From Algoriphagus iocasae (GTDB taxonomy: Bacteria; Bacteroidota; Bacteroidia; Cytophagales; Cyclobacteriaceae): 64,000 nt of DNA. Shown piece after piece: positions 1-35,109 of this stretch (position 1 is its first letter; each line of letters begins with the position of its first letter). Under the pieces are notes generated by a model that saw only the letters and a list, made by a program, of their open reading frames with translations, ran no database searches and was not told where the DNA came from. The stretch is taken from NCBI RefSeq assembly GCF_014206875.1, contig NZ_JACIJO010000003.1, positions 598,066 through 662,065 of the forward strand, written 5' to 3'. The position numbers were made by a program, and so were the translations under genes.

Positions 1-365
1 ATCATACATCTGACATCCGACATCCGACACCTCACATCATACATCCAACACCCGACATCATAAATCATATATCATACATCATAGATCCCACTTCCGTCTC
101 CCGTCACCCGTCTTCCGTCTCTCATCCTTTCAGCCTTCATACTTCTAACTTAACTTCACCACTTTAACTTTTATTACCGGTGAAGCGACTGCCTACTGAG
201 ATTCGTTAAAAATCCCCCAGCCCCCTTTAATTAAGATTTTCATCCTATCAACAATTATCTACAAGGGGGATTGGGATCCGTCTTCGATAACCAACATCTA
301 ACATCCGACATCCCACATCCAACATCATACATCTGACATCTAACATCCGACATCATACATCAACC
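1..365. repeat. Low-complexity intergenic repeat tract
   Basis: Degenerate short direct repeats of the type CATACATCTGACATC or CATCCGACATC fill 1-75 and 290-365. Between them, 208-275 holds a palindrome-like pair of C-rich and G-rich runs (AATCCCCCAGCCCCC and AAGGGGGATTGGG). No gene is seen before 559. The same CATACATC motif recurs at 31981-32017, directly upstream of the aminotransferase gene. Confidence 0.75.
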
Positions 366-447
366 CATACCCCTTTCACCAAAATATAAGGCCGTCAAAA
401 AGGCAATATGAAATATTAACAAAAAGGATTTATGATTTGGTACAGCA

Positions 448-481
448 TTTGCCTTTTAATCATCTGTTTTTATTTACTTTG
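448..481 (+). promoter_or_regulatory. Possible Bacteroidota-type promoter for the lipoprotein/LRR operon
   Basis: TTTG at 448-451 lies 22 bases before TTACTTTG (474-481), a 7 of 8 match to the Bacteroidota -7 element TAnnTTTG, with the usual spacing to a -33 TTTG. Transcription would begin about 70 bases before the ATG at 559. The core TACTTTGTAC also resembles repeat family E, so the match may be fortuitous. Confidence 0.35.
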
Positions 482-558
482 TACCACATTTGCCGATCGG
501 GAATATCCTATTCTGCAATTCCAAGAAAAACCTAAATAAATTAAATCAAACCCCTAAA

Positions 559-8749: not shown

Positions 8750-9103
8750 ATGGCAAATATTATTGTTGATAAAACATTCAGGTTTGCTCAGGAGATAATT
8801 ACTGTTTATCTGGATTTAAGAGAAAAAGGTCATTACAAAATTGCAGATCAACTAGTAAAATCAGGAACCTCTATTGGCGCCAACGTTGAAGAAGCACAAG
8901 CTGCCCACTCGAAGCTTGATTTCGTAGCAAAACTCACGATCTCAAATAAAGAAGCTCGGGAAACCAGGTACTGGCTAAGACTATTGGATAAAAAAGAATT
9001 ACTCTCCGAACATCCTTCATTTCCCTATTTAAAATCAGAAATAGAAGAAATAATTCTCCTGCTTAATTCTATAATCAAGAAATCTAGAGAAAATTTAAAA
9101 TAG
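8750..9103 (+). CDS. Four-helix-bundle protein (23S rRNA intervening-sequence protein family)
   Basis: A 117-residue, wholly helical protein. The motifs QLVKSGTSIGANVEEAQ and KEARETRYWLRLL are the signature of the small four-helix-bundle family first seen encoded in 23S rRNA intervening sequences. Members form pentameric bundles; their biochemical role is not known. It starts with ATG directly after AT-rich family G repeats and ends just before the 22-bp tandem array. A second member lies at 52286-52654, also embedded in repeats. Confidence 0.92.
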   Translation: MANIIVDKTFRFAQEIITVYLDLREKGHYKIADQLVKSGTSIGANVEEAQAAHSKLDFVAKLTISNKEARETRYWLRLLDKKELLSEHPSFPYLKSEIEEIILLLNSIIKKSRENLK

Positions 9104-9123
9104 CTCCTCGCCACCAGTTGAGA

Positions 9124-9374
9124 TTTTAAATTCTTAATTCTTCCATTTTAAATTTCTAATTCTTCCATTTTAAATTTCTAATTCTTCCATTTTAAATTCT
9201 TAATTCTTCCATTTTAAATTTCTAATTCTTCCATTTTAAATTCTTAATTCTTCCATTTTAAATTCTTAATTCTTCCATTTTAAATTCTTAATTCTTCCAT
9301 TTTAAATTCCTAATTCTTCCATTTTAAATTTCTAATTCTTCCATTTTAAATTCCTAATTCTTCCATTTTAAATT
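9124..9374. repeat. Tandem array, 22-bp unit, eleven copies
   Basis: The unit TTCCATTTTAAATttCTAATTC begins at 9141 and recurs every 22 bases exactly to 9361 (eleven copies), with a partial copy at 9124-9140. Copies differ only at the bases after AAAT (TTC, TCT or TCC). The last copy runs into the GTG start at 9380. There are no spacers, so it is not a CRISPR array. Confidence 0.95.
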
Positions 9375-9379
9375 AATAA

Positions 9380-9886
9380 GTGCTCGAATCCCTAGTCACA
9401 TCTAAAACCCGCATCAAACTTCTGCTCAAGTTCTTTGCTCATGCCAATTCAGGATACCTGCGTTCATTGGCCAAGGAATTTGATGAGTCTACCAATTCCG
9501 TTAGGGTCGAACTCAATCGCTTGACAGAGGCTGGTTTATTGGTATCGGAGGAGGAGGGGAAAACCAAGCTTTACAAAGCCAATAAAAACCATCCCTTTTT
9601 CAATGAAATCACCAATATGGTGTCCAAGTTTCTGGGGCTGGATGATTTGATGGAGAGAATCGTCAAAAGAATGGGGGAGGTGGAGAAGGCCTATATCGTG
9701 GGAGATTATGCTTTGGGAATAGACTCTGGAACAGTCAATATGATCTTAATTGGTAAAAATCTGGATAAGAAATACCTGGAATTCATCAAAGAAAAAACCT
9801 TCGAAAAAGTCCAACGAAAAGTGGAAGTAACTATCCTCGAGTCCGATCCCGGGGATATCCAAGGTATTTTGGTTTTTGGTTCCTAA
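9380..9886 (+). CDS. Winged-helix regulator fused to a degenerate nucleotidyltransferase domain
   Basis: A 168-residue protein. Residues about 8-75 form an ArsR-like winged helix (RSLAKEFDESTNSVRVELNRL is a typical helix-turn-helix). Residues about 100-168 resemble the small MNT/pol-beta nucleotidyltransferase fold, but the usual GS and DxD catalytic positions read GD (108-109) and TVN (118-120), so it should not be catalytic. Proteins of this type often open polysaccharide loci in Bacteroidota, and this one stands at the head of such a locus, so a regulatory role there is inferred. The start is GTG, six bases after the tandem array. Confidence 0.82.
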   Translation: MLESLVTSKTRIKLLLKFFAHANSGYLRSLAKEFDESTNSVRVELNRLTEAGLLVSEEEGKTKLYKANKNHPFFNEITNMVSKFLGLDDLMERIVKRMGEVEKAYIVGDYALGIDSGTVNMILIGKNLDKKYLEFIKEKTFEKVQRKVEVTILESDPGDIQGILVFGS

Positions 9887-11956: not shown

Positions 11957-12451
11957 ACAGTGGTCAGTGATCAGTTGGCAGTGGTCAGTCGCAGTTGGCA
12001 GTGGTCAGTAGGCAGTCTCAGTGGTCAGTGGACAGTTGACTGTACCAAATCCCACATACCACATACTTTGTACTTCGTACTTGGTACTTTGTACCTCCCA
12101 TAGTGATCAGTCTCAGTAGACAGTCGCAGTAGGCAGTCTCAGTTGGCAGTTTTCAGTGTAGAGTTAACGGTTTACTAAGTACATCATCTTTCCAATTTCA
12201 GACTTCGTACTTGGTACTTGGTACTTTATACATCTGATAGTAGGCAGTCTCAGTGGACAGTGGTCAGTGGACAGTTGAAAGTACCCAATACCCAATACCA
12301 CATTCCAAATACTTTGTACTTCGTACTTGGTACTTTGTACATCTCATAGTAGCCAGTAACCAATAAGCCCATACTTCCCTTTAGGGGCTGCGGGTAAATA
12401 CCCTTCATTTTAAATTCTCAATTCTTTCATTTTAAATTTTAAATTAAAAAA
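11957..12451. repeat. Family F and E repeat tract
   Basis: 11957-12040, 12105-12165 and 12236-12275 are built from CAGTGGTCAGT, GGCAGT and TCTCAGT units (family F). 12045-12100, 12205-12230 and 12280-12340 are family E (TACTTCGTACTTGGTAC). Family G (TTCATTTTAAATT) at 12405-12450 leads into the next TTG start. No gene was seen. Confidence 0.85.
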
Positions 12452-14430: not shown

Positions 14431-14749
14431 GCAGTCGCAGTGGTCAGTATCCAGCCTGCCTGCCGAAGGTAGGTCTCAGTAAACAGTAAGCAGTCTCAGT
14501 ATGCAGTGATCAGTAATCAATAGCTCTCTCAAACATCCACATACGACATACCACATTCCAAATACTTTGTACTTAGTACTTGGTACATTGTACATCTTAT
14601 AGTTATCAGTGCAGAGTTAACAGTTTACTAAATACTTCATCTTTCCTATTTCAGACTTTTCCCTTCTTATTTCAGACTTCATACTTCGTACTTTGTACTT
14701 CCAACTTCCCACTCCCAAACCCCAACCTACTTTTTAAAAAGATTAAAGT
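14431..14749. repeat. Family F, C and E repeat tract
   Basis: CAGTCGCAGTGGTCAGT-type units (14432-14450, 14472-14520), one family C palindrome (CCTGCCTGCCGAAGGTAGG, 14455-14473) and family E tracts (14560-14605, 14685-14702). No gene was seen; the oxidoreductase on the minus strand ends at 14750. Confidence 0.82.
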
Positions 14750-32014: not shown

Positions 32015-33313
32015 ATAACCCTCCCAACTCCCTTCAACAAACCCTACCAAACCGGTAAGGAACTGACATACATCCAAGATGCGATCAATAGGGGTAAACT
32101 CTCTGGAAATGGTCATTATACCCATCTTTGTCAGCAATTCTTTGAGGAGCGTTATGGATTTCAAAAATGCCTGCTCACCACTTCCTGCACTGATGCACTG
32201 GAGATGGCGGCAATACTCTTGGATATCCAACCCGGGGATGAAGTGATTATGCCCGCATTCACTTTTGTCTCTACCGCCAATGCCTTTGTGCTCCGTGGAG
32301 CAAAAATCATCTTTGTGGATAGTAAGGCGGATCATCCGAATATGGATGAGAGTAAAATCGAGGAACTGATAAACCCAAAAACCAAAGCTATTGTAGTCGT
32401 TCATTATGCCGGAAAAGCCTGTGAAATGGATGTCATAATGGAGATAGCAGACAAGCATGGACTATTTGTGGTAGAGGATGCAGCCCAAGCCATAGATAGC
32501 TTTTATGAAGATAAGCCTCTGGGAGGAATAGGACATCTGGGATGCTTTAGCTTCCATGAGACCAAGAATATCCAAAGCGGAGAAGGAGGGATGCTAACAA
32601 TCAATGATCCCCAATTCATTAAAAGAGCAGAGATTATCTGGGAAAAAGGAACGGATAGAGCTGCCTTCTTCCGTGGGGAAGTCGATAAATACGGATGGGT
32701 GGATATAGGGAGCTCTTTCTTGCCATCCGAACTCAATGCCGCCTACCTATGGGCACAGTTAGAGAATATAGATGCAATTCAAAGAAGAAGAAAAGCCATT
32801 TGGGAGGACTATGCTAGTCTATTCAACGGCGATATTGCTAAGCCTAATGTTTTGTGTGCTGATTATCTGAAAGTATTTGAGAATTTAAAATTTAAAATTG
32901 AAAATGGCTTGTCAATCCGAGCGGAGTCGAGGACAGACGGTTTCGAACCTCTAAAATCTCCTCTCTCAGGTGCTCAGCCTGACAATAAAGCTAGTTTAAC
33001 TCCACAAAGCATCGAGGGTCAACTAATTTTAAATTCAAAAATTTCACATTCTAAATTCATTGCAAACGCCCACCTCTTTTACCTACTGTTTCCATCACTT
33101 GCTGCCCGGACGGCTTATTCGGAGGAATTAAAAAAACAAGGGATTCTGGCCATATTCCATTACCAAAGTTTACACAAATCAGAATATGCCAAAAAGCATT
33201 TCCCAGATCAATACGAGCGAGATCTTCCCAATTCTGATCGCTTTTCTAATTGCTTATTGAGACTGCCTTTGTTTTATGAGCTTCACGAATTTTCAAGTCA
33301 TCTCGACGACTGA
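32015..33313 (+). CDS. wecE: dTDP-4-amino-4,6-dideoxygalactose transaminase (WecE/RffA type) with an in-frame repeat insertion
   Basis: A PLP aminotransferase of the DegT/DnrJ/EryC1/StrS family, about 432 residues where about 375 is usual. The N-terminus reads PFNKPYQTGKELTYIQDAIN, so the gene begins well before its first ATG (32204). The frame is open only from 31991, and the likely first codon is an ATA at 32015 or ATC at 32012 inside a repeat; no ATG, GTG or TTG is available. VVEDAAQA and HETKN supply the cofactor Asp and Lys. Residues about 290-350 are translated repeat (family B and G), and the last residues SSHLDD come from a family A half-element carrying the stop. Whether it is still active is open. 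Confidence 0.85.
   Translation: MTLPTPFNKPYQTGKELTYIQDAINRGKLSGNGHYTHLCQQFFEERYGFQKCLLTTSCTDALEMAAILLDIQPGDEVIMPAFTFVSTANAFVLRGAKIIFVDSKADHPNMDESKIEELINPKTKAIVVVHYAGKACEMDVIMEIADKHGLFVVEDAAQAIDSFYEDKPLGGIGHLGCFSFHETKNIQSGEGGMLTINDPQFIKRAEIIWEKGTDRAAFFRGEVDKYGWVDIGSSFLPSELNAAYLWAQLENIDAIQRRRKAIWEDYASLFNGDIAKPNVLCADYLKVFENLKFKIENGLSIRAESRTDGFEPLKSPLSGAQPDNKASLTPQSIEGQLILNSKISHSKFIANAHLFYLLFPSLAARTAYSEELKKQGILAIFHYQSLHKSEYAKKHFPDQYERDLPNSDRFSNCLLRLPLFYELHEFSSHLDD
32909..32985. repeat. Family B palindromic element inside wecE
   Basis: The ends TTGTCAATCCGAGC (32909-32922) and GCTCAGCCTGACAA (32972-32985) are inverted with 11 of 14 matches. AT-rich family G-like arms (AATTTAAAATTTAAAATTG upstream, AATTTTAAATTCAAAAATT downstream) surround it. 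It adds no stop codon in the gene's frame. Confidence 0.82.
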
Positions 33314-33516
33314 AAGGAGGAGAGATCTGATCTTCGGCCATATACTTTGTACTTCGTACCTTAATTACTTCTTACCAAATACTTTGTACTTGGTACTTTG
33401 TACTTGGTACCACAATTACAACATACCAAATACCATATACCTTGTACTTAGAACCAAAACAGTAAACTTTCCCACCTGCCTCCGGTAGGCAAGCTTTAGC
33501 CCTCTGACTTTCCATT
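33294..33516. repeat. Family A half-element, family E and family C repeats
   Basis: TCATCTCGACGACTGAAAGG and AGGAGAGATCT (33297-33328) form a family A half-element across the stop codon of the aminotransferase. Family E units run from 33340 to 33450, and a family C copy (CCTGCCTCCGGTAGGCAAG) lies at 33475-33493. The next TTG start follows. Confidence 0.82.
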
Positions 33517-35109
33517 TTGCTGTTCAACTCCTTCACCTTCCTCATCTTCCTACCTATAGTATTTCTACTATACTGGTTTGTATTTCAGAAGAATTTGAAG
33601 CTTCAGAATGCATTCCTATTACTCGCTAGTTACGTGTTCTACGGCTGGTGGGACTGGAGATTTCTTGGGTTGATTATTGCGAGTTCTGCGGTGGATTATT
33701 ATTGTGGCCTTAAGTTAGGACCCGTCATATCGACCAAAAACCGAGTCATCTCGACCGAAGGGAGAGATCTCAATGATGGTAGTAAAGAAGAAAAAGAGAT
33801 TTCTCCTTCCGCAAGCTCCAGTCGAAATGACCAACGTACCAGGTCATTTCGACAGGAGGGAGAAATCCCTAATTCTAATGCCATCTTAAGTCTATTTCAA
33901 GGTCGCAAACTCTACTTAACAATAAGCCTCACCTTCAACCTAGGCCTTCTTGCCTTCTTCAAATACTTCAACTTCTTCATTGAATCAGCAGCGGATTTTA
34001 TCAGCCTCTTTGGCTTCCAGCCACACATCAGTACCCTTAATCTAATCCTTCCTGTTGGCATATCATTCTATACCTTTCAAACACTGAGCTATTCCATAGA
34101 CGTCTATAGAGGCAATCTCAAACCCACTAAAGACCTAATCGCCTTCTTTACCTTTGTGGCGTTCTTCCCTCAACTAGTTGCTGGTCCTATAGAAAGAGCA
34201 TCCAACCTGCTTCCTCAGTTCTTTAAAAAGCGGGAATTCGAATATCAGCAAGGATCCGATGGGATGAAACTTATTCTCTGGGGCTTTTTCAAAAAGATGG
34301 TGATCGCAGATAATTGTGCACTCGTAGTCAACCCCATCTTCGAGAACTATCAAACAGCTTCAGGCCTAGAGCTTATCATGGGAGCGATTCTCTTTGCATT
34401 CCAAATCTACGGTGACTTCTCAGGATATTCTGATATCGCAATAGGAGTGGCCAAACTCTTTGGGTTTGATTTAATGACCAACTTCCGAACTCCATATTTC
34501 TCGCGTGATATTGCCGAGTTCTGGCGCAGGTGGCATATTTCTCTTTCTACTTGGTTTCGGGATTATGTCTATATCCCGCTAGGCGGTAGTCGTGTTCCCA
34601 AAGCAAAAGCCATTCGGAATATCTTTATCGTATTCCTAGTCTCTGGATTCTGGCATGGAGCCAACTGGACTTTTATCGCCTGGGGAGGAATCCATGCGGC
34701 AATGTTTATACCTATATTCTTGATAGGGAAGAATAGAGCACACTTACATGATGGCGAACATCTAATACCTTCATTCAGAGAGGTAATTCAAATAGCATCA
34801 ACCTTCTTGTTGGTTTCTGTAGCTTGGGTGTTTTTTAGGGCTGAAACGGTAGGGGATGCCGTGGATTATTTTACTCATATTTTTAGAAATTCATTATTTC
34901 CTACCAGTTATGGTTGGTTTGGCTATAACATCCGGCTTGCGCTTATCTTATTTATTCTTCTAGAATGGGTGGGAAGATTCCAGTTTAATTGGCTAGAACG
35001 AATTCAAGGGAAATGGTATAGATATCCAGCTTATATTAGTACAATCTATTCAATATTGTTTTTCGGTGTTTTTGGGGAACCTATTGAATTCATATACTTT
35101 CAGTTTTAA
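33517..35109 (+). CDS. MBOAT O-acyltransferase (AlgI/DltB-like) with an in-frame repeat insertion
   Basis: A 530-residue multi-pass membrane enzyme that O-acylates an exported polysaccharide. It has the usual start MLFNSFTFLIFLPIVFLLYW, the segment DFSGYSDIAIGVAKLFGFDL, FWRRWHISLSTWFRDYVYIPLGGSR, and SGFWHGANWTFIAWGGIHA with the catalytic His. Residues about 68-125 (33719-33893) are translated family A repeat placed between DYYCGLKLG and GRKLYLTISLTFNLG, which adjoin in relatives; the protein is about 55 residues longer than usual. The insertion falls in a loop between membrane helices, so the enzyme may still fold. The start is TTG. The SGNH partner gene overlaps by one base. Confidence 0.92.
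   Translation: MLFNSFTFLIFLPIVFLLYWFVFQKNLKLQNAFLLLASYVFYGWWDWRFLGLIIASSAVDYYCGLKLGPVISTKNRVISTEGRDLNDGSKEEKEISPSASSSRNDQRTRSFRQEGEIPNSNAILSLFQGRKLYLTISLTFNLGLLAFFKYFNFFIESAADFISLFGFQPHISTLNLILPVGISFYTFQTLSYSIDVYRGNLKPTKDLIAFFTFVAFFPQLVAGPIERASNLLPQFFKKREFEYQQGSDGMKLILWGFFKKMVIADNCALVVNPIFENYQTASGLELIMGAILFAFQIYGDFSGYSDIAIGVAKLFGFDLMTNFRTPYFSRDIAEFWRRWHISLSTWFRDYVYIPLGGSRVPKAKAIRNIFIVFLVSGFWHGANWTFIAWGGIHAAMFIPIFLIGKNRAHLHDGEHLIPSFREVIQIASTFLLVSVAWVFFRAETVGDAVDYFTHIFRNSLFPTSYGWFGYNIRLALILFILLEWVGRFQFNWLERIQGKWYRYPAYISTIYSILFFGVFGEPIEFIYFQF
33745..33869. repeat. Family A palindromic element inside the MBOAT gene
   Basis: GTCATCTCGACCGAAGGGAG (from 33745) and the inverted arm CTCCAGTCGAAATGAC (ending 33831) enclose GAGATCTC and GAGATTTCTCC motifs. 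A further half copy (GTCATTTCGACAGGAGGGAG, then AAATCCC) lies at 33843-33869. All of it is read through in the gene's frame without a stop. Confidence 0.88.

Follow-up and report, generated by a model that had tools for sequence, protein, structure and literature searches.

The O-acyltransferase gene of Algoriphagus iocasae raises the question of how repeat DNA that otherwise lies mostly between genes comes to be translated inside a membrane enzyme, and whether this happened once or recurs at the same site. The gene was analyzed within a window of 64,000 nucleotides, which is the whole stretch of DNA under study and belongs to a genome of 5,427,275 bases (designated G000), as well as across other genomes of the genus.

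The loop insert of the MBOAT gene in Algoriphagus iocasae

The gene occupies positions 33517..35109 on the forward strand, starts with TTG and encodes 530 amino acids. Its product matched the PF03062 profile (E 9.1e-25), and a structure-model search returned the DltB chains 8jem and 6bug (E about 1e-10) as the closest solved structures, followed by HHAT; both profile and fold thus identify it as an MBOAT O-acyltransferase of the AlgI/DltB-like type.

The original prediction had proposed that a family A palindrome plus a partial copy is translated in frame within this protein and lengthens it beyond the family norm. We confirmed the insertion as 177 bp at 33718..33894 (forward strand), corresponding to 59 in-frame, stop-free codons (residues 68-126). 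In the alignment with relatives, the extra segment was present as 59 residues at a loop where insert-free relatives hold 4-9, an excess of approximately 53 residues over these proteins. Measured as for the 59-codon insert, the loop of a paralogue from G000 itself spans 5 codons; one paralogue of this genome lies about 35 kb from the gene.

Three forward-strand elements of family A were distinguished within the insert. A degenerate partial copy (GTCATATCGA / GTCATATCGACC...; 33724..33744) precedes the full palindrome (GTCATCTCGA / GTCATCTCGACC ... GTCGAAATGAC; 33745..33831), the left arm of which is read in phase 0 and the inverted end of which is TCGAAATGAC at 33822-33831. A half copy at 33843..33868 is read in phase 2 (SFRQEGEIP), a different frame from that used for the left arm of the palindrome. 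Compared with 60 mononucleotide shuffles, the insert as a whole (33718-33894) showed the better folding (z -4.9).

In the structure model, the loop is flanked by helices at residues 47-70 and 129-153, with a short helix at 122-125 in between. Model confidence was below 50 for residues 72-119, with values of 33-43 across most of the loop, which is predicted to be disordered. Judging by the positive-inside rule, it would face the cytoplasm.

Probable refilling and possible exchange of the loop across the genus

In a search of 72 genomes of the genus, 48 showed some match to the MBOAT protein, and 17 besides G000 carried copies that were 57-82% identical, all of which were read. Together these gave 20 loops in 18 genomes, G059 and G075 each contributing a second copy; that of G059 is truncated later in the gene and was still counted. 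In these two genomes (loci L155 and L170, respectively), the two MBOAT copies lie a few kb apart, each with its own loop insert.

All 20 inserts, which range from 69 to 336 bp and comprise 933 codons in total, were multiples of three and free of stops, for which uniform-base estimates give chance probabilities of 2.9e-10 and 3.5e-20, respectively. Their content, by contrast with this uniformity in frame, differed from species to species when classified with our own peptide patterns. Family A was found in G000 and G071. Family B, the GTCATTGCGA palindrome, filled the loops of G063, G059, G033, G067, G069 and G078 and, in a more degenerate form, those of G080 and G019. The loops of G018, G076, G010, G093, G075 (both copies), G015 and G034 were 7-bp-periodic, with a lag-7 identity of 0.39-0.61 and values of about 0.25 at other lags. 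By peptide pattern, composite loops occurred in G063, G059, G033, G078, G067 and G069. The loop of G031 and parts of other loops were assigned to none of the repeat families, which counts against refilling by repeats. Families A and B were each translated in phases 0 and 2. Further, not all loops are hairpins: a clear folding advantage over shuffles (z below -2) was seen in only 7 of the 20, and the fold of one was worse (z +2.2).

The loops of database relatives, among them proteins named Mongoliitalea and Echinicola, were similarly varied; against refilling, many of the relatives are metagenomic and could be chimeric. As background only, a contig scan yielded, among the best 80 of 484 confirmed loci, full-length matches of about 1,413-1,479 bp, implying short loops. 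In 59 full-length relatives, the loop ranged from 18 to 109 residues while most other ten-residue segments were constant in length; the first 40 residues also varied, a matter of start annotation, as did the last 130 by a few residues. P0005, which is 90% identical to the window protein outside the loop, carries 24 unrelated residues within it. Relatives with the same residues but lacking the repeat DNA, which would have spoken against a repeat origin, were not seen in the comparison. Median loop identity was 0.23 for pairs with a core identity of 0.85-0.90 (189 pairs) and 0.27 for those at 0.90-0.95 (34 pairs), loop identities above 0.6 being reached by 4% and 6% of these pairs, respectively; more distant pairs had medians of 0.17-0.21. 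Above a core identity of 0.95 there were two pairs only, with a median of 0.64, which counts against repeated refilling.

Taken together, these results make it probable, as far as sequence comparison can tell, that the loop between two MBOAT membrane helices has been filled with translated repeat DNA over and over. A single insertion within the clade of the genus would have founded the site by placing dispensable repeat DNA in the loop, later repeats may have nested into or replaced the earlier loop DNA, and strains may have exchanged loops by recombination in the conserved flanks. The predicted disorder of the loop would be the reason why such replacement is tolerated. The idea of an in-frame family A insertion thus stands for the gene in the window; as a one-off event it does not, the loops of other species carrying unrelated repeats.

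The number of changes was estimated on a quick tree of database relatives computed with the loop omitted, which kept 119 of 121 rows (the window's own protein, P0001, and one short row were dropped). Leaving aside P0086, P0093, P0083 and P0074, in which the start or the loop start is missing, insert presence changed 5 times on the resulting 115-row tree and insert families far more often: changes per carriers were 5/5 for A, 13/13 for D, 14/14 for F, 23/34 for B, 18/22 for C and 10/11 for E. These counts are rough, given labels based on our own patterns, a mosaic gene and a quick tree in which 39 of the 116 inner branches are drawn open, and the first-letter count omits 7 filled rows without a label.

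The paralogues served as an internal control. At 48-60% identity, 29 were listed; a G067 copy with no N-terminal match and a broken G076 copy could not be measured, and the 27 measured copies (51-60% identical) all had 8-9 loop residues. Filled copies and paralogues coexist in 11 genomes. In a quick tree that left out the filled copies' loop, the 20 filled copies formed one clade against 28 paralogue rows, with one state change (support 99). This check removed a possible circularity, the recognition of paralogues by insert absence, and left the assessment of the competing explanations as it was. One founding insertion is therefore likeliest, as the filled copies form a single clade and the paralogues are unfilled. 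Neither the fold nor the repeat load of the genome alone explains the filling, since the paralogues share the fold, and in many cases the genome, and stay unfilled.

Within the filled clade, G000 and G071, both with family A loops, fell into different well-supported subclades, so that either family A entered the loop on two occasions or an exchange took place. It could be supposed that exchange explains everything, a fixed pool of old loop types recombining among strains with few new insertions. Near-identical or similar loops do occur in otherwise diverged proteins (P0051/P0063 and P0021/P0087), and identity along the gene was mosaic in several pairs. In the eight alignable loop pairs, loop pS was mostly well below that of the flanks (0.25 vs. 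0.74-0.78 in G000/G071; 0.04 vs. 0.21-0.40 in G067/G069), and loop pN/pS was 0.52-1.69 compared to 0.05-0.38 in the flanks, ratios that carry large errors as the loops are short. These values suggest that loop similarity resides at the DNA level and is younger than the gene. Two observations count against refilling: G063/G059 showed hardly any drop in pS (0.52 in the loop vs. 0.60-0.62 in the flanks), and Q and P0004 share a loop type, yet their identity next to the loop (77-80%) is lower than in other parts. Exchange is also favored by seven genomes (L282-L288) that retain only a short N-terminal MBOAT stretch (28-61 residues matched) followed by unrelated sequence, as though sets of polysaccharide genes were swapped along a boundary at the gene start. 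We also considered these seven as alleles frame-shifted by repeats and rejected this, as they run into unrelated sequence and look truncated. Exchange alone is nevertheless very unlikely, because the family A loop type tracks the genome's own repeat stock (see below) and composite loops such as those of G078 and G033 exist.

The loop might instead be a functional variable region under selection, for instance a binding or regulatory linker with repeats as raw material, in line with its being filled in all 20 clade copies read. Against this, the high pN/pS of shared loops and the reading of families in different frames both argue, as does P0072, an almost empty metagenomic allele that groups with P0047 and P0049, whose loops have 45 residues. 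We regard a selected function as extremely improbable. Under repeated refilling, selection would retain little beyond a stop-free sequence with a length divisible by three, and the peptide would be a disordered linker, presumably devoid of function.

Repeat families and host genes outside the loop

Strict patterns were counted over the 18 genomes, including the loops' own copies and with reversed patterns as the control. Family A occurred 23 times in G000 and 32 times in G071, at most 8 times in any other genome and not at all in 8, so that the two genomes with family A loops are the two richest in this family (next: 8). Family B was present in 14 of the 18 genomes, one heptamer pattern in 9 and another in 8. 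Reversed controls gave 0, including for family A in G000, except for one match with the heptamer pattern found in 8 genomes. For family B, loop type was weakly linked to the stock of the genome, G076 and G015 having many copies and no family B loop.

Family A copies clustered near the MBOAT gene: in G000, 9 of the 23 lie no more than 61 kb away, and in G071, 25 of the 32 lie no more than 47 kb away (gene copies counted). Tests for local copies gave mixed results. Insert 12-mers recurred in the 10-62 kb of neighboring DNA beyond all controls for only 3 of the 20 copies, and when 11 of the 20 loops were compared with their own neighborhoods by BLAST, 4 had no hit and 3 weak or doubtful hits only; one hit in G075 was the loop of its own second copy. 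Dispersal is therefore argued from the genome-wide patterns and the 7-bp periodicity, and the putative repeat origin is best shown for families A and B and for the clearly 7-bp-periodic loops.

Arrays with the same periodicity also lie between genes. The gap upstream of the MBOAT gene (33314..33516, no strand assigned) is a 7-bp-periodic repeat array with a lag-7 identity of 0.49 vs. a coding mean of 0.26. Among the intergenic gaps around the locus, several were periodic in this manner (up to 0.56 against the same coding mean) and others were not. Degenerate 7-bp-periodic repeats fill long gaps at window positions 1-489, 11957-12451 and 14431-14749 (lag-7 identity 0.50-0.56). A tandem array of a 22-bp A+T-rich unit at 9079-9423 resembles the arms of the aminotransferase insert described below.

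In line with the original prediction, family A is mostly intergenic elsewhere: among the 22 G000 copies examined, only the MBOAT copy lay deep in an open frame, flanked on either side by 50 or more open codons. Two others (L006 and L007) lie near the end of an opposite-strand frame of 256 codons and could be the C-terminal end of a gene. With identical contexts removed, gene context was covered for 55 of 76 strict family A places (32 in G071, 21 in G000 and 2 in G034) and 69 of 70 strict family B places. Strict copies that sit in a long frame and have 50 or more open codons to either side amounted to 11 gene instances: MBOAT in five genomes, GT4 glycosyltransferases in three, and HsdM, a type ISP restriction enzyme and DsbD in one each. 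When G000/G071 and G067/G069 were merged as one event each, MBOAT accounted for 3 of 9 events. The GT4 and DsbD inserts fall between two profile matches, and those of HsdM and the ISP enzyme inside one. Two family A and two family B copies in frames of 121-160 codons were set aside, the frames being judged spurious. In G033, a GT4 glycosyltransferase (L243:1377-2873) holds two family B copies and, by inspection, an ACATCGG-type heptamer stretch in one open frame.

These host genes bear on the simplest alternative, that repeats insert at random everywhere and that the loop merely survives in-frame inserts, each species acquiring its own independently. The predicted disorder of the loop and the linker-like position of the inserts in the three GT4 glycosyltransferases and DsbD are in line with such tolerance, as is the lack of a targeting enzyme in sight. 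Genes for Y1 (RAYT-type) transposases were present in all 18 genomes, and we considered them as movers and rejected them, since an exact family A or B core lay within about 1.5 kb of only 1 of the 20 loci read; no mover was found in this survey of 18 genomes and 20 loci. On the other hand, the measured paralogues lack inserts throughout, the filled copies form one clade and MBOAT makes up 5 of the 11 deep instances, so that we consider tolerance by itself unlikely.

The gene upstream of the MBOAT gene has a second variable, repeat-filled site. It encodes a DegT/WecE-like aminotransferase (32204..33313, forward strand), the frame of which is open over 440 codons, so that the true start may lie upstream of 32204. 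By inspection, its variable region (32858..33058, forward strand) consists of A+T-rich inverted arms around another palindrome-like stretch; further, a forward-strand family A half copy at 33297..33328 provides the C-terminal HLDD of the protein together with its stop codon. Some match to this protein was found in 71 of 72 genomes, and the 30 best-scoring orthologues were read (L172-L201). Spacing between fixed points was 102-237 bp in 13 of these and 57-87 bp in 17, always in threes. On inspection, most long inserts looked like A+T-rich inverted arms, palindromes or heptamers; that of G077 did not. The aminotransferase frame of G024 reaches 526 codons.

A more active process might place repeat DNA preferentially in the MBOAT loop, renewing it within the time in which close species diverge, either by recombination between repeats or through some hitherto unknown hairpin-acting nuclease or transposase; the same process would work at one site each in neighboring surface-polysaccharide genes. 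We think such a landing site rather unlikely.

Relation to known repeats and significance

Palindromic elements in protein-coding genes of Rickettsia (RPEs) are reportedly the subject of Ogata 2000 and Ogata 2002. The original prediction had drawn this parallel, of which the idea of a translated palindrome holds and the pattern does not, the MBOAT loop involving several families, more than one frame and a neighboring gene with its own site. According to a review, RPEs are palindromic repeats of about 150 bp that lie in frame in many unrelated protein-coding genes of Rickettsia, each with an open reading frame for a conserved peptide (PMC10969869). Set against that account, the likeness lies in translated in-frame palindromes inside otherwise conserved proteins. 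It differs in that one site of one gene here receives unrelated palindromic and 7-bp-periodic families, and in that each RPE family has one conserved peptide, whereas two reading phases occur within family A and likewise within family B. The comparison is by description, and we claim no RPE membership for either family.

Closer in form are the CGTC and GTAG REPs of Di Nocera 2013, which that article describes as short palindromes, often in facing pairs, mostly intergenic and in some cases, in several bacteria, intragenic, with intragenic clusters encoding 43-82 residues; the CGTC type is known from Bacteroidetes, has no dedicated transposase, bears CGTC (or the variants TGTC and CCTC) at one end and has a stem of 8-9 bp that begins with A-T pairs (PMC3733652). 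On that description, families A and B share the short palindromes, the frequent facing pairs and the mostly intergenic, sometimes intragenic location. An inverted partner with at most 1 mismatch lay within 150 bp in 39 of 54 family A and 33 of 69 family B copies, and an exact core was found near 1 of 20 Y1 genes, in line with REPs that have no adjacent transposase. The base before GTC was C in 66, A in 2 and T in 1 of the 69 family B copies; in family A (n=54) it was A in 19, G in 13, C in 11 and T in 11, most copies thus being without the CGTC tag. The unbroken stem was 5 bp in all 54 family A and 69 family B copies, a length set in part by the search pattern, compared to the 8-9 bp given for the REPs. 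The available part of Di Nocera 2013 also describes no single site refilled by different families (PMC3733652).

The periodic loops, for their part, resemble by description the heptanucleotide STRRs. In cyanobacteria, STRRs form degenerate 7-bp-periodic arrays between genes. The likeness lies in the intergenic arrays, and the difference in that some of those studied here are translated inside a protein.

In-frame palindromes are thus already known from RPEs and intragenic REPs, while the re-use of one coding site by unrelated families appears to be new: in a literature search by title and opening of the abstract that largely excluded subscription journals, we found no published work on one coding site refilled by different repeat families, nor on such repeats in this genus.

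One protein in one genus thereby offers a natural series of coding sequence drawn from repeat DNA, with the paralogues as a built-in control. The series makes it possible to test how fast noncoding repeats turn into protein, what is tolerable to a membrane enzyme and whether the presence of repeats attracts more of them. A further caution is that a database peptide like VIARRNDEAIS can represent a translated repeat rather than a domain. Overall, the loop indicates how a single site can be the place where noncoding repeats are repeatedly converted into protein.
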